49,265 nt of DNA from a bacterium (lineage in GTDB: Bacteria; JAJRZV01). Within the stretch, counting starts at the first letter, position 1; each line of letters starts with the position of its first letter. The position numbers and the translations under genes are program-made. Of the stretch, positions 32,534 through 48,912 are shown one piece after another. Where the stretch lies: assembly GCA_024275095.1 (NCBI GenBank), contig JAJRZV010000065.1, forward strand, positions 1 through 49,265, read 5' to 3'. The notes under the pieces were generated by a model, which saw nothing but the letters and a program-made list of their open reading frames with translations, made no database searches and was not told the DNA's origin.

Positions 32534-33631
32534 ATGGCTCTTCAAGGAAACCTTAAAGACTTTGAAATTCCGGAAGTTTTTCAGCTTATAGCAACACAAC
32601 AGAAAACCGGAATTCTGAAAATTGAATCAGGAGACAGCTCCTTTGGAGTGTATTTTTCTCGCGGGTTCATTCAGTTTGTAGAAAGGAACCCATCCGCTCC
32701 CGGCCTCCATTTTGTCAACTTTCTGGCACGCTCTGGCATAATCAAGAAAAGGCTTGCGCAGGAGATCAACAGAATTGCCAGTAAAACGTCAGAATCCGCC
32801 ATCAGAATTCTTCTCAAAGAAGAAGATCTGGACGTAGAAGCTCTCAAGCGGGGGGTGAACCTTTACATCATGGAACAAATGCTTAACATCATCACACTCA
32901 AACGGGGAGAGTTCCAGTTTGTGACCCGAAAGGTGGACCTGGACCAGCAAATATTTGAACCTCTAACCGCCGACCACGTGCTCATGGAAACATATCGGAT
33001 TGCCGACGAGCTGAAAAAAGAAGTCGGAGACGCGCAGCCATGGAACGATGTATACGAACTTGTGATGGAAAGGCGCGACGCCTTTGAAGAGGCAAAGGGA
33101 CTCGGCCTCAAAGGCGATGAATTGAAGCTTGTGCTTCTCATTGATGGCCGCAGAACCCTTGAAGACCTTGCATTTCGTTCAACCCTGGGGCGTCTGGAAG
33201 CATGGCGAACCATATCACGTCTTATATCTGCAGGGATTGTTCACAAACGCGAGATTGAAAAAGTAGAGAAAAAAGAAGAACCTCTCAAATTAAAACCCAA
33301 AGAACGGGCCTGGACATTCTATCTCTTCACTACAATCGTCGCGGCGGTGTTCGCCTTTGTTGTGTTCGCAAGGATCACTGCTGCAGAAAGCGGCACAAAA
33401 ACCTCCACGGCCACCTTTGCTGATTTTTACCATCGAGTAGGCACAGCGAAAATACGCTCAGCACTTTATGTGTACAAAAAACTTACCGGGACTTATCCGT
33501 CAGAACTCAAAGTCCTCTTTCAGAACGGGAGCATCTCTCCACATGAGTTGACTTTTCCACTGAAAGACGTTTATTATATTTATATAACCAATGAAGATAA
33601 TTACGTCCTTTTGATTCCCCTCCAGCAATGA
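32534..33631 (+). CDS. DUF4388 (PATAN-type) protein with a C-terminal transmembrane segment
   Basis: 365 aa. The N-terminal DUF4388 domain starts ALQGNLKDFEIPEVFQLIATQQKTG and continues LKIESGDSSFGVYFSRGFIQFVE; such domains occur in gliding, chemotaxis-like and regulatory proteins of Myxococcota, Deinococcota and Cyanobacteria. A middle part (about 185-240, LLIDGRRTLEDLAFRSTLGRLEAWRTISRLISAGIV) resembles a helix-turn-helix-like module seen in the same family. A transmembrane helix follows (about 258-278), then a short extracytoplasmic tail with GTYPSELKVLFQNG and YYIYITNEDNYVLLIP, reminiscent of the C-terminal part of type II secretion pseudopilins. It overlaps phoH by 4 bp. Confidence 0.75.
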   Translation: MALQGNLKDFEIPEVFQLIATQQKTGILKIESGDSSFGVYFSRGFIQFVERNPSAPGLHFVNFLARSGIIKKRLAQEINRIASKTSESAIRILLKEEDLDVEALKRGVNLYIMEQMLNIITLKRGEFQFVTRKVDLDQQIFEPLTADHVLMETYRIADELKKEVGDAQPWNDVYELVMERRDAFEEAKGLGLKGDELKLVLLIDGRRTLEDLAFRSTLGRLEAWRTISRLISAGIVHKREIEKVEKKEEPLKLKPKERAWTFYLFTTIVAAVFAFVVFARITAAESGTKTSTATFADFYHRVGTAKIRSALYVYKKLTGTYPSELKVLFQNGSISPHELTFPLKDVYYIYITNEDNYVLLIPLQQ

Positions 33632-34587
33632 AAAAAACCTTAAAGCGCGAGATTGTGTTTGATGCAAACGATGTGGCAAAGATTGCTTTTGGTGAGCACA
33701 ATATTAATCTGAAAAAGATTGCGGATACTTTTGGTGTAACTATCGGGTCCCGTGGCAATCGAGTATTCATTCTGGGAGACGAAAAATCGGTGAGACAGGC
33801 TGAACGTGCAGTCACGGAACTGTATTTAAAAGCTGAAAAGGGAAGCGGCGGCTCACTTGTAGAGATGGTATCTCTTTCAGAAAAAGCAGGTACCCAGCTT
33901 CGCAAAGAAATAACAGAAAACAATACTGTTATATCCACCAGAACAGGACGGCGCATAGAACCTCGTTCTCCCAATCAGGCACGCTACGTGCAGGCCATGC
34001 TTCAACATGATATCGTGTTTGCTATCGGTCCCGCAGGGACCGGGAAAACGTATCTTGCTGTTGCCATGGCTGTAAGGTTCCTGCGCGAACGCCTTGTCAA
34101 CCGTATTGTTCTCACGCGTCCAGCAGTGGAGGCGGGGGAAAAATTAGGATTTCTTCCGGGTGACATCACTGAAAAAGTCAATCCATACCTCAGGCCCATT
34201 TACGACTCGCTCAACGACATTCTCAGTCGGAACGAATTTTTCAGCCTCATGGAACGCTCGATCATTGAAATTGCACCGCTGGCCTTCATGAGAGGCAGAA
34301 CCCTTAATGATGCATTTGTTATTCTGGACGAGGCACAAAACACCACAAAAGAACAAATGAAAATGTTTCTCACGCGCATTGGCTTCAACACCAGAGCCGT
34401 GATCACAGGAGATATAACCCAGATTGACCTCTCGGAAAGAGAAAAATCCGGACTTTTGCATGCCCGAAAAACTCTCAAGCACATTCGTGATATTGCGTTT
34501 ATTGAACTTACAGAAGAAGATGTGGTGAGGCACCCGCTTGTTCAACAGATCATCCGTGCTTACGAAGAGGCGGAAAAACAGGACTGA
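33628..34587 (+). CDS. PhoH-family ATPase (PhoH-like)
   Basis: 319 aa. An N-terminal KH-like region (NLKKIADTFGVTIGSRGNRVFI) precedes the P-loop ATPase core with GPAGTGKTYLAVAMAV, LTRPAVEAGEKLGFLPGD, VILDEAQNTTKEQMKMFLTRIG and VITGDITQIDL. This is the standard bacterial PhoH2/YbeZ form, whose gene is commonly found in the order phoH-pgpH-ybeY-corC as here. YbeZ works with YbeY in rRNA processing. It overlaps neighbours at both ends (4 bp with DUF4388, 1 bp with the HD gene). Confidence 0.95.
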   Translation: MKKTLKREIVFDANDVAKIAFGEHNINLKKIADTFGVTIGSRGNRVFILGDEKSVRQAERAVTELYLKAEKGSGGSLVEMVSLSEKAGTQLRKEITENNTVISTRTGRRIEPRSPNQARYVQAMLQHDIVFAIGPAGTGKTYLAVAMAVRFLRERLVNRIVLTRPAVEAGEKLGFLPGDITEKVNPYLRPIYDSLNDILSRNEFFSLMERSIIEIAPLAFMRGRTLNDAFVILDEAQNTTKEQMKMFLTRIGFNTRAVITGDITQIDLSEREKSGLLHARKTLKHIRDIAFIELTEEDVVRHPLVQQIIRAYEEAEKQD

Positions 34588-36824
34588 TGAACAACGCATC
34601 AGGAAAAAAGCCCCCTGATGCGGGGAGCAATTTTGTTTCACTTTTTGTAAAAACATCCTTGGTTTACCTGATTGCCGCCCTTCTCGTTTCAACTATCTTT
34701 TTAAGTGTACAGAAGTACAAGTATGTTTTTCGGGTCAACTATCCTTCGCCGGTAGACGTGACAGCTCCACATGACATGCAAATAGAAGATAACGAGGCGA
34801 CCAAAAAGGTTTTATCCGAAGCGCGCAAAAAAGCACCGGCATTTTTCATCTTTGATAATACGGTCAACACAACATCCTTACAGAAAATCAGAAAACTTCT
34901 GCGACGCAGAGATGCCGGCACGTTGAAGTCCTTTTTGTATTCACAGTACCCGAAGATTAAAACAGCCACCGTTGAAACGCGGGATGTATTAAAGCTGGGA
35001 AAGGTACTCCTGAAAATTCTCTCTCAAACGGAAAGAGCCTTTATCGTTGAAGAGCGTCCTGCCGAATTCCGCCGTGCCGTAATACGCAAGGGCGATACCG
35101 ACCAGATGGTGGATATACGAATGCTGGAAACTGTAAACCAGTTCATCAAACGCACGTTACCGACACTTTTACAAGATTACAAATTATCGGCATATCAGGA
35201 CTTGGTCACGCCTGTACTTCGTTCTCTTGTACGACCCAACACGTTCTTGAACGAAGCACGTACAAAAAATGCTGTCATGGCAGCAGTATCCAGAGATGTT
35301 CCTGTTCGGTATATTTTGCGAGAAGGAGAGGTAGTAATCAGGAAAGGCGACATTGTCACCTCGGAGGACATGACAAAAATCAACGCAATCATGAAAGAAA
35401 AACGATTCTATCATACACTCAGCTGGTACATCTCAGCCTCTTTTCTGCTGGCTTTAATACTTATCGTGGTTTCATATTTGGTCCACCAGTTTGCAGATGC
35501 TCACATAACGCTCAAGGACGCAGGGTTTGTGGGGTTGCTCGTGATACTGCAGGCAACATTTCTTCGAACACTTGCACTTACAGGCTGGACGAGCAGTTAT
35601 GTCATACCATTCATATATCTACCCCTGCTTGCAGCGTCCATTATTCGCAAGCGGCATTTAGGGCTTATTCTCATACTTTCTGCAGGGTTGCTGCCCGGCC
35701 TTTATGGTCTTCCCTCCGGATGGTTTCTCTCGCTAACGTGGTTCCTCTCAGGTGCTTTTCTCCTGACAGTACTCATCGCAAGACAGATCAAAAGAAGGCT
35801 GGATTTTCTCATTTACGGATTTGCAGGAGCAGCAGCGGGAGCACCCATTGCCTTTTTTGTCTGTGTACTGGGGGGTGCAGAAACCCCGGAAGCACTACAC
35901 TCCGGTCTTTTTTACGGTGCTGCCTGCATGTTTTCGGGAGTCCTCGCAATAGGAGTTCTCCCAGCAGTAGAGCGAATCTTCCGCTATACCACCAACGTAT
36001 ACCTTCTCGAACTGGCAAGCCTCAACCACCCTCTGCTCAGAGAACTGGCCATTCGTGCGCCCGGGACGTATAACCACAGCATTATGGTAGGAACTCTTTC
36101 AGAAGCAGCGGCTGAAAGTATCGGGGCCAACCCCGTTCTCGTGAGAGTAGCGGCATATTTCCACGACATAGGAAAAATGAAAAAGCCCAACTATTTCGTT
36201 GAAAATCAAAAAGGCGGCGAGAATCCGCATAATCGTTACACTCCGAGCATGAGCGCGCTTGTGATTATCTCTCACATCCGCTATGGAGTGGAAATGGCCC
36301 ATCGCCACGGGTTGCCGGATGAAATCGTCGACGCCGTCCGAGAGCACCACGGCACCAGCCTGATCCAGTATTTTTACGAAAGAGCACGCGAAAAGTCGGA
36401 AAATCCGGATGAAGTACCAGAGGAGGATTTCCGTTATCCAGGACCCAAACCCCGAACTAAAGAATCTGCCATTATTATGCTGGCAGATGCCGTGGAAGCA
36501 GCGGCAAGAACGCTTAAAAATCCCACAGATGACCAGATCGCAGGCATGGTACAGCGCATTATTAATCGCATCTTTGCGGATGGTCAGCTCGAGGATGCTC
36601 CTTTAACCCTCAAAGACCTTCACCTTATCGCCCGTTCGTTTATTCACGTGCTTGTCGGTATTTACCACAGGCGTATCGACTATCCCCGTCCTGCTTTCAA
36701 GGGAACTCCACCGGGAGAGGAGGTGTCAGGTGCCGAAAAGGAAAACCACGAAAGACAATCTGAAAGAAAAACTGGAGGAGAAGATAAGGAAGAGATTAAA
36801 CGCCTGGGGACTCCGAAATATTGA
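34587..36824 (+). CDS. 7TMR-HD family phosphohydrolase, PgpH-like (c-di-AMP hydrolase)
   Basis: 745 aa membrane protein. One N-terminal helix (about 20-42) is followed by an extracytoplasmic 7TMR-HDED domain (about 45-280), seven transmembrane helices (about 285-480) and a cytoplasmic HD domain. The HD residues are in NHSIMVGTLSEAAAE, AAYFHDIGKMKKPNYFVENQ and REHHGT. Characterised relatives (PgpH) split c-di-AMP to pApA. No diadenylate cyclase is seen here. The C-terminal tail (KENHERQSERKTGG onward) is translated over the ribosome binding site and first codons of the next gene, an overlap of 95 bp. Confidence 0.92.
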   Translation: MNNASGKKPPDAGSNFVSLFVKTSLVYLIAALLVSTIFLSVQKYKYVFRVNYPSPVDVTAPHDMQIEDNEATKKVLSEARKKAPAFFIFDNTVNTTSLQKIRKLLRRRDAGTLKSFLYSQYPKIKTATVETRDVLKLGKVLLKILSQTERAFIVEERPAEFRRAVIRKGDTDQMVDIRMLETVNQFIKRTLPTLLQDYKLSAYQDLVTPVLRSLVRPNTFLNEARTKNAVMAAVSRDVPVRYILREGEVVIRKGDIVTSEDMTKINAIMKEKRFYHTLSWYISASFLLALILIVVSYLVHQFADAHITLKDAGFVGLLVILQATFLRTLALTGWTSSYVIPFIYLPLLAASIIRKRHLGLILILSAGLLPGLYGLPSGWFLSLTWFLSGAFLLTVLIARQIKRRLDFLIYGFAGAAAGAPIAFFVCVLGGAETPEALHSGLFYGAACMFSGVLAIGVLPAVERIFRYTTNVYLLELASLNHPLLRELAIRAPGTYNHSIMVGTLSEAAAESIGANPVLVRVAAYFHDIGKMKKPNYFVENQKGGENPHNRYTPSMSALVIISHIRYGVEMAHRHGLPDEIVDAVREHHGTSLIQYFYERAREKSENPDEVPEEDFRYPGPKPRTKESAIIMLADAVEAAARTLKNPTDDQIAGMVQRIINRIFADGQLEDAPLTLKDLHLIARSFIHVLVGIYHRRIDYPRPAFKGTPPGEEVSGAEKENHERQSERKTGGEDKEEIKRLGTPKY

Positions 36825-37056
36825 TATTGTTTTCGTAGGACCGGAAGAGATGACACGTATCAACCGGAATTTCTTGGGACGTGAAGGCGACACCACGGTC
36901 ATTACCTTTTCTTATCCCTGCATCAACTCCTCCGAAAAAACAGGAGAGGTTTTTCTGTGTATTGATGCGATTGTGAAAGAAGCAAAAAATGTAAAAGCAG
37001 ATCTGGACGAATACATAGAACAAATTGCTCAACATGTCTTGGAGAGCCTTGGCTGA
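36730..37056 (+). CDS. ybeY: YbeY-like protein lacking the catalytic His motif
   Basis: 108 aa, against about 150 for YbeY. GGAGGT at 36718-36723 marks GTG 36730 as the start. The fold is recognisable: IDIVFVGPEEMTRINRNFLGREGDTTVITFSYP matches the 'LN..fR..d.pTDVLSFP' region in pieces, and GEVFLCIDAIVKEA the next strand and helix. The metal-binding HGxLHLxGYDH should follow, but the protein ends IAQHVLESLG: aligned to AHGVLHLLG, the first His is Gln, the second Glu, and the third is beyond the stop. No other frame supplies the motif. It may be a structural partner of PhoH or a decaying gene. Confidence 0.75.
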   Translation: MPKRKTTKDNLKEKLEEKIRKRLNAWGLRNIDIVFVGPEEMTRINRNFLGREGDTTVITFSYPCINSSEKTGEVFLCIDAIVKEAKNVKADLDEYIEQIAQHVLESLG

Positions 37057-37870
37057 CAAAAATTTAAAAAAAGCACTGCTCAACTTCCTTCTCAATCGGA
37101 TGGCACGGGGGCTTCCACCCCAGGACCTTGTTGCAAAGGTTTCACAACTCCTTGTCGAACACGACATTCTGGACTCCTCTGAGGGCATACTTTTGAGACG
37201 CCTGCTCACGTTTAAAAACAAAGATGTACGTGATGTAATGGTGCCCCGGGGTGAAATATTCGCTGTCGCCGGAGATGCACAGCTTCGGGATGTCATGCCT
37301 TCTCTCAGTAAACACGGCTTTTCAAGAGTTCCCGTATATGAAAAGAACCTGGACAACATCGTGGGGGTGCTTTACGTAAAAGACGTCGCATTTTTCTTTC
37401 CACCAGACGGAGATGTTCCAGTAAGCCAGCTCATGAGAGAAGCACACTTTGTTCCCGAAACCATGACGCTTCAGCAACTCTATGCAGAATTCACGCGCCA
37501 TCGGGTACATATCGCCATGGTTATAGACGAATACGGCTCTGTCACAGGCCTCGTAACCATGGAAGACCTGCTGGAGGAGATTTTCGGCGAAATCCAGGAC
37601 GAATATGACAGCGAAAGCGACCCTGAAATCCAGATGGTGGGCGAAAACGCCGCCCTTGTCCAGGGCAGGGTCAACATTGACAGGCTTTTTGAAATTTTCG
37701 GGGTTTCTATTGAAGCAGAGGGCATTGACACAGTAAACGGGCTCCTGTCACAATTGAAAAACGGGATCCCCCAGAAAGGGGACGTGTTTGAATATTACAC
37801 TCTCGTCTTCCGTGTACTCGAAAGTGACGAGCGCCAGGCGAAAAAGGTCCTCATCAGACGCGTCAATTAA
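37034..37870 (+). CDS. corC: CorC/HlyC-type CBS-domain protein (magnesium/cobalt efflux accessory)
   Basis: 278 aa. Two CBS domains (VRDVMVPRGEIFAVAGDA to VGVLYVKDVAFF; VPETMTLQQLYAEFTRHRVHIAMVIDEYGSVTGLVTMEDLLEEIFGEI, read in pieces) are followed by a CorC_HlyC C-terminal domain (GRVNIDRLFEIFG, GIDTVNGLLSQLKNGIPQKGD). No transmembrane DUF21 part, so this is the soluble CorC form. ATG 37034 is inside the ybeY end (23 bp overlap); TTG 37025 or 37049 are alternatives. The last base pairs overlap the stop of the converging receptor gene: both stops use the palindrome TTAA at 37867-37870. Confidence 0.92.
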   Translation: MSWRALADKNLKKALLNFLLNRMARGLPPQDLVAKVSQLLVEHDILDSSEGILLRRLLTFKNKDVRDVMVPRGEIFAVAGDAQLRDVMPSLSKHGFSRVPVYEKNLDNIVGVLYVKDVAFFFPPDGDVPVSQLMREAHFVPETMTLQQLYAEFTRHRVHIAMVIDEYGSVTGLVTMEDLLEEIFGEIQDEYDSESDPEIQMVGENAALVQGRVNIDRLFEIFGVSIEAEGIDTVNGLLSQLKNGIPQKGDVFEYYTLVFRVLESDERQAKKVLIRRVN

Positions 37871-39930
37871 ATCTCCAGGCGCAGGTATCCAGCCGCCGTC
37901 CACGGCATGGGCTCTCCACCATAATACATTGTAACTCTCTCGGTGGTGAGACCCGAACCGGTATAGGGATACATGCGCGAACGATCATCTTCAGCACTGA
38001 ACATGCCCCCGAGCGCATTGCGAATCATTACGCCCATACTGAATCCTTTAACAACTTCATATTCTATGTGTGCATTGAGCAAATAATTGGGACCAGCAGA
38101 ACGCGGTCCTGTGTTGGCACCTCCAGCGACAGCAAAAAGCGTATACCGGGGCCATGTGCGCCTGGAGTAATACGTAAAAAACAGGTCCACACTCAGACCT
38201 TCCACAGGCGAGTAATGAACTCCAACATTAATTTTATGCCGGGGTGAAGATGTAATGTCGTCACCTTTGTTGTAAATATTCGCGCCCTGCTCCGGGGAAG
38301 GCACATCCGAGCGTGCACGTATGACTTGAAATGCATAATTTGCACTGAACGAAAGATTGTGCATGACCAGCACGTCCACAGAGGCTTCTGCTCCCATGGA
38401 GTAAAAGTTGTTTTCCAGGTTGGAATATTGAAACGCATCCTGGGCATAATCAAAGTAGATGATATTCTGAAAATATTCACAAAAAATGCTGGTTTCTGTT
38501 TTAACCCATTTGCCAAAGCGCCCCATGTAGGCGATTTCAGCACTGTTTATAACCTCGTTAAACTGCTGTATTTCGACCTCTCCTCCGACAGACCCGTCCC
38601 AACCTTCTATGTCACCGCCGTATTCCAGAAACGATGGCCTACGGAATGCCCTGGCACCCGAGAGTCTCACTGTATGGCTTCCCCGGGTGTATATAAACGC
38701 AACGCGAGGACTCACCGTATCGGATGGCTGTTCATTCAAATATGTACTGTCATCATAGCGAACGCCCAACGTTATCTTAAATCCTTTGAAGGGTTTAACA
38801 TCACCCTGTGCAAATATACCGTAGCGGGTTTCGTTAATTGCCTCATATGCTGGTATCAGTCCTTCGTTTCGATACAGATTGAACCTCAACTCTCCCCCGA
38901 CAGTAACGCTCGCTACATCCCCAAAATTGCGACCGTATCGCATTTCTATGTCCAAGGTATTGACACCGAGAGTAAAAAGAGTCGTCTGGCTTTCCCGATT
39001 ATTCTTGTCGTAGAAAACTTTCAACTCTGTGGAATAGCGGTTCCAGAAGAATTGAAAGTAAGCACCGTGGGCATCACCCTGAATTCGCGCAAAGGCGTGT
39101 TTACCCTTCGCAAACGCAGGGGAGAAAGGAAAAATATAGATGAACTTACCGGCTGCACCACCGATGTCAAAGTTGATGTTGACATTTTCAGCAGGACTGC
39201 CTGATACGCGAAGGCGCCCACTACCTGAAAGAAGATCGGCGCGGGTGGTATTGAGCACGTCCATTGCTGTGTTCACATGACCGGCAACCGTAAATGTAAC
39301 CCGTCGGCCCCTCCCAGAATATCCGATGGCATTACGTGCCATGAATGGAGAAGCTCCTTCTATCGTCCGCAACCAGAACACATGACGTTTCTCTTCAGAA
39401 GCCGAACGGGTAATGATGTTGATAACTCCGGAAAACGCGTTGGGTCCATACAGAGTAGAACCGGGGCCGCGCACCACTTCGATTCGCTCGATTTCATCCA
39501 GCGATACAGGCAAAAGAGACCACATGGGTGCGCCAAACACTTCATTGTTGGTTTCCCGCCCATCAATAAGGAGTAACACCTGATTGTTGGATTCATCAGT
39601 AAAACCGCGCATGCCCACAATGGGAAAGCTCTCGTATGCCCAGTACGACTCCACGCCTGGAACGTATCGCAAAAGGTCCGGAACGGATAACGCGGGCAGG
39701 CGGCGAATTTCCTCACGCGTAAGCACGCTTACAGTTGCCGGGGCCTCCGTAACCTTTTCCTCCTTCTTGGAGGCCGTTATGGTAATATCCTCGGCCTGGA
39801 AGAGCTTGAACTCTTCTTCCAGTGCCTCCAAACCCTGCCCTGCCGAAGCGGTTGTTGCCAGCAGGCAGAACACCACAAGATGTTTTGTAATCCTCATGAT
39901 GGTAGAAACCATATTACTGCGATGGAGCAC
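37867..39930 (-). CDS. TonB-dependent outer-membrane receptor
   Basis: 687 aa. A signal peptide (about 12-32), a TonB-box-like stretch (EDITITASKK) and a plug domain (VSVLTREEIRRLPALSVPDLLRYVPGV, GFTDESNNQVLLLIDGRETNNEV, IERIEVVRGPGSTLYGPNAFSGVINIITR) precede a beta-barrel of about 500 residues ending LRLEI. The plug resembles vitamin B12/colicin and unclassified receptors (BtuB/CirA type); the ligand is unknown. The start is GTG 39930 with GGGGAG 7 bp upstream; ATG 39897 would remove an 11-residue lead. It begins inside the end of the lipoprotein gene (17 bp overlap), so the two are made together. Confidence 0.9.
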   Translation of the reverse strand: MLHRSNMVSTIMRITKHLVVFCLLATTASAGQGLEALEEEFKLFQAEDITITASKKEEKVTEAPATVSVLTREEIRRLPALSVPDLLRYVPGVESYWAYESFPIVGMRGFTDESNNQVLLLIDGRETNNEVFGAPMWSLLPVSLDEIERIEVVRGPGSTLYGPNAFSGVINIITRSASEEKRHVFWLRTIEGASPFMARNAIGYSGRGRRVTFTVAGHVNTAMDVLNTTRADLLSGSGRLRVSGSPAENVNINFDIGGAAGKFIYIFPFSPAFAKGKHAFARIQGDAHGAYFQFFWNRYSTELKVFYDKNNRESQTTLFTLGVNTLDIEMRYGRNFGDVASVTVGGELRFNLYRNEGLIPAYEAINETRYGIFAQGDVKPFKGFKITLGVRYDDSTYLNEQPSDTVSPRVAFIYTRGSHTVRLSGARAFRRPSFLEYGGDIEGWDGSVGGEVEIQQFNEVINSAEIAYMGRFGKWVKTETSIFCEYFQNIIYFDYAQDAFQYSNLENNFYSMGAEASVDVLVMHNLSFSANYAFQVIRARSDVPSPEQGANIYNKGDDITSSPRHKINVGVHYSPVEGLSVDLFFTYYSRRTWPRYTLFAVAGGANTGPRSAGPNYLLNAHIEYEVVKGFSMGVMIRNALGGMFSAEDDRSRMYPYTGSGLTTERVTMYYGGEPMPWTAAGYLRLEI

Positions 39931-43877: not shown

Positions 43878-45935
43878 ATGAAATTCTTATTGCCATTTAT
43901 TCTCATTGCATCTCTGCCCGTAGGTCGAATTCCCCCTGCGCTCCAGGATCTGGGGAACATGCTCATGCAACAGTTCATAGATCGTGCCATGGGCATTACA
44001 CCTCTTGCCAGCACGTATGAACCCCCTTTCGACACGACAGGCTCCGTAAGGTGTCTGGTTGTGCTTACAGAGACCCCTGCGGAGAGTCTTTCGAGCGTTC
44101 CTGGATGCGGTGACACACCAGAATGTCAAAGGGCTTACTTCCAGGAGATGTTTTTTCGCCCCCCTGGCCAGCCGCCCCGGTATTACAAGTGGCAGAGCGT
44201 GCGAGAATTTTATCAGGAACAGTCATGCGGGCGTTTTGATTTCAACGGTGATGTCATCGGACCTGTAACGATGCCGCAACCCATAGATTACTATGCCTGC
44301 GGGGCAGGTAATGGTAACTCGGGGTGCCTCGAATGGGATGAGAACGATGCCTGTCTCAATACAAGCCCGGGGGTCACACCCGGATGCCACGTGTACATAG
44401 AAGACGTGGTTGACGCAATAAATTCTCAGGTAGACTTTCGAGATTACGATGCAAACAACGACGGGGAAGTAGATTGTTTTATCGTCGTTCATCCAGGGCC
44501 CGGGGCCGAACAAACGTGCAATCAAAACCTCACTTGCGATCCCACCGCCATCTGGTCTCACTTCTGGTATCTCTCCTCGCCCAAATATACGGGTGATGGT
44601 TCCACCTTTGTGTACCGTTATCTTATAGGCCCTGACTGGTCGCTGGTATGGGACGAAAAAATCGAAATGGGTGTATATGCCCATGAATTCGGCCATTACA
44701 TGGGACTCGTGGACCTTTATGACAGAGATTTTACTTCCTGTGGACTTGGACCTTACAGCCTTATGGCATACGGAACTCACGGAGTAAGTCCCAATGGTCT
44801 GGATCCTCTCTCGCGTGATGTTCTCGGGTGGGACGATTTGATCTTTACTCAGGACAATACATGTGAATACGTCCTTTACCCGGTAGAAACCTCCTGCCAG
44901 ATTCTTGTGGTGGGTCGCGATGGTTCCGACGATCCTGAATTCTTTCTCATTGAATACAGAAAACCCATAGGCTCAGATGTAGATTTGCCTTACGAGCGCT
45001 CCCCCGACTTTGAAGGAGGCATACTCATTTATCACGTTGACCTGTCCGTCGAAAAAATGTTCTGCCAGGTGGATAAAGACATAGAGGGGCGCTGCAATCC
45101 CATTAATTACTGTCCCATGAGAAATGAGTGTGAATGGTATCCGGGAAAGGACCCGCGTTATCACTATTTAATAGCCCTGGTGGAAGCCTCGTGCGCGAGC
45201 TACGATCTGGAAACCCCCTCTGGGGTCGACGTGTGTGATGAACTCTCAAAAGATGACCACTTTTTCAATGACAAGGATAGAAACGTATTCACTCCGGAAA
45301 CCTGTCCAAACTCTCGCGATTATTTAGACGAGCTTGGAGTGGGACCTTTCGTTGAGATAAGACTTCTCGAGGATGAAAAGGCACTGCTTACCATCATGGG
45401 TACAAACGGAAACTTCGAAATGCCATTCTTTGTAAATGAAGCTCCATCCATCGCTTTGCCGGGCAGCACCTACGAATACCTTCCCGAAGTCACCGGCACA
45501 GCACCTTTCACGTTTCGCTTGCTCGAAGCTCCAGCAGGAGCAAGAGTTGACGTGAATTCCGGCAAGGTGCAGTGGGATGTGGACGAAAGCACACCCTCCG
45601 GCAAGTATAGATTTATACTCGAGGTATCCAGCTGTGCAGGAACCTCCACCAAGGAGTGGTACGTGCAGGTGTCCCGGGTGAACATAGAATCCATCCAGTC
45701 CAGCGATCGCTGTTTTATCGAAGAACTGCTGGACGGGAGGGATGTTTCTGCATACCGTAAAGTAAAAACAATGCTCTCAAACCTGCCGGGAGGTCCGCTG
45801 GTCGTGAAAGCTTATTACTCTATAATTTCTCCTTCGCTTAAATTTTTCATTCACCGTTTTCCTTTTTTCAAGGTCCCGGCTGCAGCCGTTCTCAAAACAG
45901 GGATTAAAATATTGAACCAGGTGATAAAACAATGA
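43878..45935 (+). CDS. Secreted M6-family metalloprotease (immune-inhibitor-A-like)
   Basis: 685 aa. A signal peptide (about 1-15) and short propeptide precede the catalytic domain. The zinc site is HEFGHYMGLVDLYD (HExxH at 269-273). A calcium loop DANNDGEVD (191-199) comes before FIVVHPGPGAEQT, as in M6 enzymes. SLMAYGTHG supplies the Met-turn-like region. About eight Cys lie in the catalytic part, suggesting disulfides. Residues about 520-600 form an Ig/cadherin-like module (APSIALPGSTYEYLPEVTGTAPFTF, split), and the C-terminus has a hydrophobic stretch that could help surface retention. Its stop overlaps the next gene's ATG by 4 bp. Likely a secreted or surface-bound protease; substrate unknown. 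Confidence 0.88.
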   Translation: MKFLLPFILIASLPVGRIPPALQDLGNMLMQQFIDRAMGITPLASTYEPPFDTTGSVRCLVVLTETPAESLSSVPGCGDTPECQRAYFQEMFFRPPGQPPRYYKWQSVREFYQEQSCGRFDFNGDVIGPVTMPQPIDYYACGAGNGNSGCLEWDENDACLNTSPGVTPGCHVYIEDVVDAINSQVDFRDYDANNDGEVDCFIVVHPGPGAEQTCNQNLTCDPTAIWSHFWYLSSPKYTGDGSTFVYRYLIGPDWSLVWDEKIEMGVYAHEFGHYMGLVDLYDRDFTSCGLGPYSLMAYGTHGVSPNGLDPLSRDVLGWDDLIFTQDNTCEYVLYPVETSCQILVVGRDGSDDPEFFLIEYRKPIGSDVDLPYERSPDFEGGILIYHVDLSVEKMFCQVDKDIEGRCNPINYCPMRNECEWYPGKDPRYHYLIALVEASCASYDLETPSGVDVCDELSKDDHFFNDKDRNVFTPETCPNSRDYLDELGVGPFVEIRLLEDEKALLTIMGTNGNFEMPFFVNEAPSIALPGSTYEYLPEVTGTAPFTFRLLEAPAGARVDVNSGKVQWDVDESTPSGKYRFILEVSSCAGTSTKEWYVQVSRVNIESIQSSDRCFIEELLDGRDVSAYRKVKTMLSNLPGGPLVVKAYYSIISPSLKFFIHRFPFFKVPAAAVLKTGIKILNQVIKQ

Positions 45936-48211
45936 AAAAACATCTCGTCAAAACAACCGTTTTTATTGCATTATTTGCACTGTTGGAAGGGTGTGAAGGG
46001 AGCAGGTCTTTGCCCGAAATCAATCCCTCTGTACTTTACTTCCCGTGCGGGATCCCGGCTCTTAATGTAGTAATCTCCGCGGCCGGGAAGGTGGAATATT
46101 CTGTCATTGCTACACCTTCATGGCTTTCTGTGACTCCTTCTTCAAGTTCGGGGGTGTATTCACTTGTGGTCACAGCAGCGGTTGCAAGGGAGGGTCTTTA
46201 CCCTGGGCAGTATTCAGAGCAGGTAATTTTTAATGTAAACGGCCATGAGATGGAAGTAACAGCCGTCGTGGACAACTGCGGAAGCGAAATATACGCATCG
46301 CCCGCCAGATTAAAATTCAGTGAAAGCGACGTGGAACTACCCCTTAGACTTTACTCCTTTAGTGATGCACCGGTGAACTGGGTGGCTTCTACAACGGCCA
46401 CCTGGTTAGAGCTCTCGCCTGTGTTCGGCACACTTTCAGAGGGACTGGATATCGTAAATGTGAGGGTTAACCGGTCAGGACTTTCCCCGGGAAGTTACAC
46501 AGCAACCATATCCATCTCAGGGCCTGTTTCTGCCACACATGTGGTGGTCGAAATGGTAAAGGCTGACCACCCGGTACTTTTCTTTCCTCAGGATCCCCTT
46601 ATCGTTGACGCATGTTCCGACTCGGTAACCCTTCCTGTAATCAACTTGGGAAGCGGCTCGTCACTGGTGCGACTCAACACCTCCTCTCCTCTCCTTTCTC
46701 CTGAACAGGCGTGGATGTTCTCCCGACCGGACGCTTTTGCCATACCACTGGTGGTTGATCGTTCAGCTTTCTCTCCAGACGCGTATCAGGTATCCATTAC
46801 CATATCTGATGCTTACGCCACTTACGGGGTAGATGCAAACGTAAAAGTCCAGGGGCAGAGTCTCGACTGGCTCCACATCACCAGGGTCGAACCACCACAG
46901 GGAGTAGTTACTCCTTCTTCATCTCTGAATTTTTCCTTTGATGCCACATCTTACATCGAAACAGCTCCATCCGGGGGATATTTGAACATCAACGTGTTCT
47001 CCAGCGACGGCAATACCATCCAGACATACCGGCAGAACGTATCCGCAGGACTTGTCGACTCCACGGTTTCCCTTTCTCTCACCGGTCTCGCTCCCGGTGA
47101 TTACCCGCTTTACATCGCCGTTCAGCTCGTCTCCAATACGGGCAGCGGAGTACCGGGTACTGTACTTGTCTATCCAGTTTCCAATACCTATTACGTACTG
47201 GTGAAAAACTACTCTTTCAGTAGAGGCTGGAGAGCGCGGTGGGCTGCGTCTGTAACGGCGGTGCTCGAATACAACCTGCCATACACGGCGACGGTGGGGT
47301 TATGGCTGCTGGACCAGTGGGGAAATACGATCGCATCGTGGAGCACAGTGAGGTACGGGAATGGTACAACGACAGTCTCGCTGGACTTTAATGCAAACGA
47401 ATGCACTAAATACCTGTACATTGAAGGACGAGTCTACGGCTTTTACTCGGGGAACCTGCTGGCGCGCAACACGTTCGTCGAAGAAAGGTGGGTGCGTTTT
47501 TCCGATGTGCCGGACAGGAAAGAACCAAATAGTCTCACCTCCCCTGCGGATGCTGGCACCATTGACGCAGTTAAAGTAATCGAGGGTAATTTTCACGCGC
47601 ATGATGAAAACGATGCCTATGTTATCTCCCTCACTCCTCCTGGATGGTTCACTTTCTACACCCTCTCACGTCACCCATTTCCAGAGGGGGTCAGTCTCTC
47701 GTTGTGGGACGAGGCATTTACCACTGCCATTACCTCCTCTTCAAGACGTGATCCCGTATTTTCCGATGCCGTGATCTCGCATTCTTTCACCGCACCGGTC
47801 ACAGTGGGAGTGCTGGTGTACCCTCTTTATTCGTGGAGAGGTTCGGGCAGTGAATATTCACTTGTAGCTGCGGCAGGAAAAATCACCGCCACAGTAACCA
47901 CATTCGCCGCCGCGGTGACTGAAAGTGTTATTTACTACACAGCCACAGTGACCAATACCGGCACCGCCCCTGCATATGGAGCCGTAGCAGGTGTGTACAT
48001 TGACGAACAAAGCGTTCCTTCTCAAGAAAAACATCCTGACCTGTACAAACGTGTGGACATTTCGTCCCTTTCTTCCCAAACAATCAGTTTTTCCTACCCA
48101 TGCCCTGCCTCCGGAACATTCAACTCATACTTCCGCATATGGGCGGGCGATAGTGACTTTGCAGACAATGTAACCGGTCCCGTGCAGGTGGTATGTCCCG
48201 ACAACAAGTAA
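45932..48211 (+). CDS. Lipoprotein with BACON-like and Ig-like repeats
   Basis: 759 aa. The signal peptide ends LLEGC (lipid Cys21). Two BACON-like domains follow at about 28-110 (TPSWLSVTPSSSSGVYSLVV, GLYPGQYSEQVIFNVNG) and 115-205 (TATWLELSPVFGTLSEGLDIV, GLSPGSYTATISISG), then a third divergent copy at about 210-300. The middle holds beta-sandwich modules (YPLYIAVQLVSNTG, YLYIEGRVYGFYSG). A PPC-like domain near 535-640 (DENDAYVISLTPPGWFTFYT) and a CARDB-like end (ITATVTTF, YYTATVTNTGTAPAYGAVAGVYID) complete it. Such proteins bind glycans or proteins at the cell surface. Translational overlap with the M6 protease suggests a shared task. Confidence 0.8.
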   Translation: MKKHLVKTTVFIALFALLEGCEGSRSLPEINPSVLYFPCGIPALNVVISAAGKVEYSVIATPSWLSVTPSSSSGVYSLVVTAAVAREGLYPGQYSEQVIFNVNGHEMEVTAVVDNCGSEIYASPARLKFSESDVELPLRLYSFSDAPVNWVASTTATWLELSPVFGTLSEGLDIVNVRVNRSGLSPGSYTATISISGPVSATHVVVEMVKADHPVLFFPQDPLIVDACSDSVTLPVINLGSGSSLVRLNTSSPLLSPEQAWMFSRPDAFAIPLVVDRSAFSPDAYQVSITISDAYATYGVDANVKVQGQSLDWLHITRVEPPQGVVTPSSSLNFSFDATSYIETAPSGGYLNINVFSSDGNTIQTYRQNVSAGLVDSTVSLSLTGLAPGDYPLYIAVQLVSNTGSGVPGTVLVYPVSNTYYVLVKNYSFSRGWRARWAASVTAVLEYNLPYTATVGLWLLDQWGNTIASWSTVRYGNGTTTVSLDFNANECTKYLYIEGRVYGFYSGNLLARNTFVEERWVRFSDVPDRKEPNSLTSPADAGTIDAVKVIEGNFHAHDENDAYVISLTPPGWFTFYTLSRHPFPEGVSLSLWDEAFTTAITSSSRRDPVFSDAVISHSFTAPVTVGVLVYPLYSWRGSGSEYSLVAAAGKITATVTTFAAAVTESVIYYTATVTNTGTAPAYGAVAGVYIDEQSVPSQEKHPDLYKRVDISSLSSQTISFSYPCPASGTFNSYFRIWAGDSDFADNVTGPVQVVCPDNK

Positions 48212-48912
48212 TCCAGTTTGTTCAGCAGCATCCGGGCACTGCTGCAATAACGCTTTCGTTTGTCATGCACGTGGTCTTTTTTACCACCCTTCACTGGTCT
48301 GCAACGCATCACAAACCGGCAATTTCATTCAATTCCGTCCGTGTCCGTCTTACCGCCATATCCAGACCCGCGCCGTCGCAACCTGGCACACTGACCGGAG
48401 GCTCCACGGGTACTGAAAAAGCTATTCAAGCCAAACCGTCCGCTCGCAAGCCGGTAAAGGTGAAGAAGCGAGCCGGCAAAAAAGGGAAAAAGACACGGGT
48501 GGCCTCGAGAACAGGACCGAGCAGCAGTGTGCTGGACATTCTCAAAGAAATCGGTGAAGGAGGAGCTTCAACATCGTCATCTTCCATATTTTCCAGCCTC
48601 ACGGCAGGGGGAGCTGAAGCCCGCAGCACCTCTGGCGAATCATCCATTGATTCCGCCGTATGGTCAAGATATGCCGACAGTGTATGGAGGCTGGTCCATT
48701 CACGCTGGCGGCCGCCACCTGGAGAAGGAGAAGAGGCGGTTATTGTTGTAGTGCTCAACCCCGACGGGTCCATAAAACAGGTGTATGTAGAAAAAAGTTC
48801 GGGATTTGTATCTTACGACTCGCGTGCATTGGAGGCAGTACGTAAAAGCGCTCCCTTTCCTCCACCCCCGGGGGGACAATCAGTGGAATTGGCCTTTCGT
48901 TTTATCCGATAA
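48193..48912 (+). CDS. TonB/TolA-like energy transducer
   Basis: 239 aa. A single N-terminal transmembrane helix (about 16-34, TAAITLSFVMHVVFFTTL) is followed by a periplasmic linker rich in Lys, Ser and Gly (KPVKVKKRAGKKGKKTR) and a TonB/TolA C-terminal domain (about 155-239: SIDSAVWSRYADSVWRLVHSRW, VIVVVLNPDGSIKQVYVEKSSGF, DSRALEAVRKSAPFPPPP). The domain style with LNPDGSI...SG...D..AL.AV....PFPPPP, together with TolB next, favours a TolA role. It overlaps the BACON lipoprotein gene by 19 bp. ExbB/TolQ and ExbD/TolR are not in the window. Confidence 0.85.
   Translation: MSRQQVIQFVQQHPGTAAITLSFVMHVVFFTTLHWSATHHKPAISFNSVRVRLTAISRPAPSQPGTLTGGSTGTEKAIQAKPSARKPVKVKKRAGKKGKKTRVASRTGPSSSVLDILKEIGEGGASTSSSSIFSSLTAGGAEARSTSGESSIDSAVWSRYADSVWRLVHSRWRPPPGEGEEAVIVVVLNPDGSIKQVYVEKSSGFVSYDSRALEAVRKSAPFPPPPGGQSVELAFRFIR

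Follow-up and report, generated by a model that had tools for sequence, protein, structure and literature searches.

Introduction

What can a YbeY still do when its reading frame ends inside its own active site? This question is raised by a ybeY encoding only 108 aa in a bacterial contig (JAJRZV010000065.1), all 49,265 nucleotides of which were analyzed here and are referred to as the window. The ybeY gene is a ribosome-maturation gene that is nearly universal in bacteria, and intact YbeYs carry the motif H-G-x-L-H-L-x-G-Y-D-H, which holds the metal-binding triad H3xH5xH. It is debated whether the contribution of YbeY to ribosome maturation is that of a nuclease or that of an assembly chaperone, since engineered active-site mutants often still work.

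In E. coli, the RNase activity of YbeY requires H114, H118, H124, R59, and K61; the H114A H124A and R59E proteins keep their binding to S11 and Era, and mutants of the beta-sheet lose S11 (PMC5101352). H128A and R55A variants of human YBEY rescue a knock-out in mitochondria, and the E. coli change equivalent to human H128A also complements a knock-out; YBEY has been proposed to install uS11m, and the authors conclude that the link between its RNase activity and ribosome biogenesis is not a necessary one (PMC7515705). Like the E. coli H114A H124A and human H128A and R55A proteins, the YbeY of the window lacks a full metal site, but those mutants are point changes in full-length proteins, whereas the window YbeY is a natural truncation. 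Our searches of open-licence papers found no description of a naturally catalytically dead YbeY.

Results

A truncated ybeY downstream of phoH and pgpH

The truncated ybeY is a real feature of this assembly (contig JAJRZV010000065.1) and runs on the forward strand from a GTG at 36730 to a TGA at 37056 (36730-37056). Its product matched PF02130 at 42.1 bits (E=9.5e-11; cut-off 25) over residues 9-102, corresponding to positions 8-99 of the 129 in the model, and it shares Asn45, Thr55, Val57, Phe60, and Gly72 with the YbeY/UPF0054 family (PF02130, TIGR00043). Its TIGR00043 equivalog score, 38.4 bits, lies under the curated cut-off of 45 bits. The initial annotation had described a strong ribosome binding site containing GGAGGT, and this held: a Shine-Dalgarno (SD) sequence, AGGAGGT (36718-36724, + strand), is spaced 5 nt from the GTG and is as strong as the best other sites tested in the window, being equalled before 11542 and 24259.

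The gene order phoH-pgpH-ybeY-corC, also proposed at that time, is present, with the neighbors identified by family matches on the same strand. A full-length YbeZ-type PhoH ATPase is encoded at 33628-34587 (PF02562, 320.7 bits, positions 2-205 of 205), followed at 34587-36824 by a full-length pgpH for a 7TM-HD phosphohydrolase (PF07697, PF07698, and PF01966, with the extent taken from the ORF list), the non-conserved 3′ tail of which overlaps ybeY by 95 nt. The corC gene (37049-37870; CBS and CorC_HlyC; PF00571 and PF03471) starts either at a TTG at 37049, which has an SD, GGAG (37041-37044), at 4 nt, or at an ATG at 37034, which has none. Both the GGAG and the TTG (37049-37051) lie in the degenerate end of the ybeY motif, V-L-E-S-L-G-stop (37036-37056, + strand), and from their placement they are likely where ribosomes bind and initiate for corC, which would put the codon equivalent to that of the second motif histidine inside the site for ribosome binding. 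Beyond corC, there is a convergent TonB-dependent receptor-like ORF (37867-39930, - strand), its stop and that of corC overlapping by 4 nt, and the region 43878-48912 holds an M6-type peptidase gene followed by genes for a BACON-domain protein and a TonB C-terminal protein.

The frame ends within the active-site motif

The window YbeY ends in Q-H-V-L-E-S-L-G-stop. It had been claimed that all three metal-binding histidines were lost; the loss of the second and third stands, but the first, His102 (37033-37035, + strand), is kept, as it aligns with the first histidine of HxxxHxxxxxH in the family HMM and is invariant in a 14-sequence alignment, which rules out the loss of all three. The second histidine is replaced by Glu105 in the best register, in which one residue is missing, or by Ser106 in the ungapped register, and the third histidine is absent together with the following ∼40-45 residues, leaving the first histidine as the sole member of the H3xH5xH triad. 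The motif itself is indeed gone before the stop, with no HxxxHxxxxxH ahead of the TGA in any frame. A frameshift that would restore it, which the initial annotation had named as a refutation, was ruled out in the assembly DNA: no frame after 37035 holds the motif or the missing end.

The tail VLESLG is probably a motif that eroded in place, because an equal resemblance to the motif arises in only 1.2% of random hexamers (98.8% are less motif-like); a simple junction is the less probable origin. Outside the motif, the conserved Arg and Lys equivalent to E. coli R59 and K61 are not in place; the R59 column holds Leu49, with an Arg51 two residues on, and is Arg in 71% of 52 other YbeYs. The same Leu is seen in YbeYs whose motifs are intact (L033 and L035). 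L035, from genome G043 (G043:C104:3366-3737), is among the closest core matches to the window protein, with 41% identity over 59 aa, and has in common with it the R59-to-Leu change and GDT-VITFSY. Its motif, HGILHGFDYEH, has a changed HLLG part but, unlike that of the window YbeY, keeps three histidines and is followed by the C-terminus.

As judged from the alignments, the product would not be expected to act as the zinc endoribonuclease, because it has only one of the three metal ligands and no C-terminal region. Unlike the YbeY/UPF0054 family, it is without the second and third histidines, the C-terminal region, and apparently beta1, has Leu as its R59 equivalent, and scores under the TIGR00043 cut-off. 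We conclude that the sequence is YbeY-derived, lacks the defining metal site, and should not be named YbeY endoribonuclease.

Predicted fold and sequence constraint

An AlphaFold2 (AF2) model built from a two-row alignment (pLDDT 79, pTM 0.70) was predicted as alpha-beta-alpha-beta-beta-alpha-alpha, with three strands and four helices, compared with the four-stranded sheet and flanking helices of the YbeY fold. The six solved structures that best matched this model were all YbeYs (1oz9, 1xm5, 1tvi, 7y7o, 1xax), and the model suggests that the 108-aa product has a YbeY-like core. The N-terminal strand beta1 appears to be lost and the C-terminal helix is absent from the model. Thus, of the initial proposal that the N-terminal fold is kept, the YbeY-like core is borne out by the prediction but beta1 is apparently missing. 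A start at an upstream TTG (36652) that might restore beta1 was rejected, having no SD and an AF2 pLDDT below 50 for residues 1-31. The predicted core fold, the place in a phoH/pgpH/corC operon, and the first motif histidine are the same as in E. coli YbeY (1xm5), A. aeolicus AQ_1354 (1oz9), and T. maritima TM1509 (1tvi).

When non-consensus positions in residues 7-101 were scored for compatibility with the family profile, the window YbeY reached a z of 8.7, compared with a median of 7.7 for other, intact YbeYs and 0.36±0.95 for shuffled sequences. By this measure, the body is diverged under fold constraint and is not the product of long neutral decay, a signature that fits a retained non-catalytic protein and a very recently broken gene alike and cannot tell the two apart. 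Relative to its own PgpH, the core is the most diverged in the set (mean residual -0.129; next lowest -0.093), and of the 20 most conserved positions the protein retains 9, where the mean elsewhere is 17.6. A search for the phylum among the sampled genomes returned only the genome itself, a PgpH search of genome contigs found one relative, at 44%, and phage records gave no match.

Distribution of YbeY and of its active-site histidines

We surveyed 389 genomes across the domain and aligned 52 other YbeYs. The first two motif histidines are present in all of these, and because none of the 52 lacks them, the missing second histidine of the window YbeY is, by this count, more than chance. The third is often replaced, for example in GYEDE and GYSDE; although H3xH5xH is described as defining, this third histidine is absent from L017, L020, L024, L040, L062, L064, L070, and L081 (GYEDE, GYSDE, GYDDE, GYLDS, GFEDD). 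In three YbeYs (L044, L046, and L048, from G097, G222, and G337), the last strand is followed by the motif helix without the intervening ISLETAKRQA, and HGYLHLxG is kept. Other truncated YbeYs were considered as parallels and rejected: the one in G078 is cut by the contig end, and the other weak matches examined keep the first two histidines.

A YbeY match was found in 373 of the 389 genomes and none was detectable in 16. On this sampling, ybeY has been lost repeatedly while phoH stayed, because a strong YbeZ-type PhoH is still encoded in 13 of these 16, and for the same reason a retained PhoH is no proof of a need for YbeY. Such lineages include f11 (G010, G150, G275), f97 (G096, G221, G336), and f4 (G003, G269), families in which all sampled members are without YbeY. 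In f11, phoH and pgpH are still adjacent, and G003 and G269 have no clear Era either (best matches about 80 bits). No YbeY remnant was found by HMM or phmmer downstream of phoH/pgpH in the YbeY-less genomes inspected. Lineages that keep PhoH without YbeY help in asking what PhoH does alone.

A second, active YbeY elsewhere in the genome, one of the two explanations first offered for the locus, finds no support: in this assembly (97% complete, 136 contigs) the window YbeY is the sole PF02130 match, and a DNA search of the whole genome for an HGxLHxxG-type motif (H-G-x-L-H-x-x-G-x-[D/E]-x) gave no match, so that neither a second YbeY nor a detached motif was found by family search or DNA pattern. 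The genome encodes Era, PhoH, an RNase R-like protein, a second RNB protein, and PNPase. The 16S rRNA, with its 3′ end and anti-SD, was looked for in the assembly and is absent from it.

Discussion

The single most likely reading of this locus, held tentatively at somewhat under an even chance and nearly matched by recent loss, is that the product is a YbeY that binds without cutting. A deletion would have removed the 3′ end of ybeY, so that the SD and start codon of corC came to lie within the gene, and the motif would have eroded in place. The 108-aa product may still fold as a YbeY core and may still be made from the phoH operon; its role, if any, would be binding, not cutting, as an assembly helper that acts on the small ribosomal subunit together with PhoH, Era, or uS11. 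Trimming of the 16S rRNA 3′ end would then fall to enzymes that the genome encodes, namely PNPase and the RNase R and RNase II-like proteins.

Such a role is plausible because published active-site mutants keep S11 and Era binding and rescue ribosome assembly. The single YbeY in the genome, the absence of the motif elsewhere, the open frame with its strong SD, the family-compatible residues 7-101, the YbeY-like core predicted by AF2, the motif-like tail, and the presence of Era, PhoH, RNase R/II, and PNPase all point toward it. Against it stand the extent of divergence, the greatest of any YbeY sampled, the low number of conserved positions kept, and the apparent loss of beta1, which by analogy with E. 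coli would count against a partner role, since beta1 belongs to the sheet whose face binds S11 there. The other explanation offered initially, a non-catalytic YbeY that partners PhoH as ribosomes mature, is plausible: PhoH and Era are present, the body is constrained, and mutants keep function (PMC5101352, PMC7515705), but several lineages have phoH without ybeY and beta1 is apparently lost.

Only slightly less probable is a recent inactivation, in which one ∼130-150 bp deletion joined the codon of the first histidine to the corC ribosome binding site, leaving a functionless protein that is starting to decay as a step towards complete loss of ybeY. This single event would account for both the missing C-terminus and the corC SD and start in the tail, and it is in keeping with the repeatedly tolerated loss in the phoH-keeping families f11, f97, and f4, with the position of the window YbeY as the most diverged sampled, and with the non-essentiality of ybeY in E. 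coli (PMC4047096). It leaves the prior divergence of the body and the missing beta1 unexplained, makes the motif-like tail a 1% coincidence, and requires a very recent break, given that residues 7-101 are uneroded.

An assembly or sequencing artefact, with a short-read contig skipping about 150 bp of a complete ybeY, appears improbable. The 136 contigs would be consistent with a metagenome assembly, and a misjoin would resemble a clean deletion; but there is no repeat of useful length at the junction, the N-terminus of CorC is complete in comparison with L029 and other CorC proteins, genes elsewhere in the window are not truncated (for example, AcrB, 1-1020 of 1021, and an ATP synthase alpha/beta protein), and the flanking motif residues (Glu/Ser and the missing Gly) are unlike any intact motif. 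Least probable is that the peptide has no role and that ybeY is a leader whose translation could be retained only to couple corC to the upstream genes, as might be suggested by the corC start inside the last ybeY codons and the weakness of corC's own SD (GGAG at 4 nt; none for the ATG), since coupling requires an open frame but not family-compatible residues through the body.

Returning to a YbeY that binds without cutting, a broader form is less likely than not: ribosome assembly across the whole lineage would rely on a shortened, naturally non-catalytic YbeY working with PhoH, Era, and uS11. If true, nature would have put to the test the proposal that YbeY mainly installs uS11, rather than cutting the 3′ end of 16S rRNA. 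A natural YbeY without its metal site would fit the view that ribosome biogenesis is not necessarily linked to the RNase activity (PMC7515705) and, as the sole copy in its genome, would separate the nuclease and assembly roles of the family without engineering.
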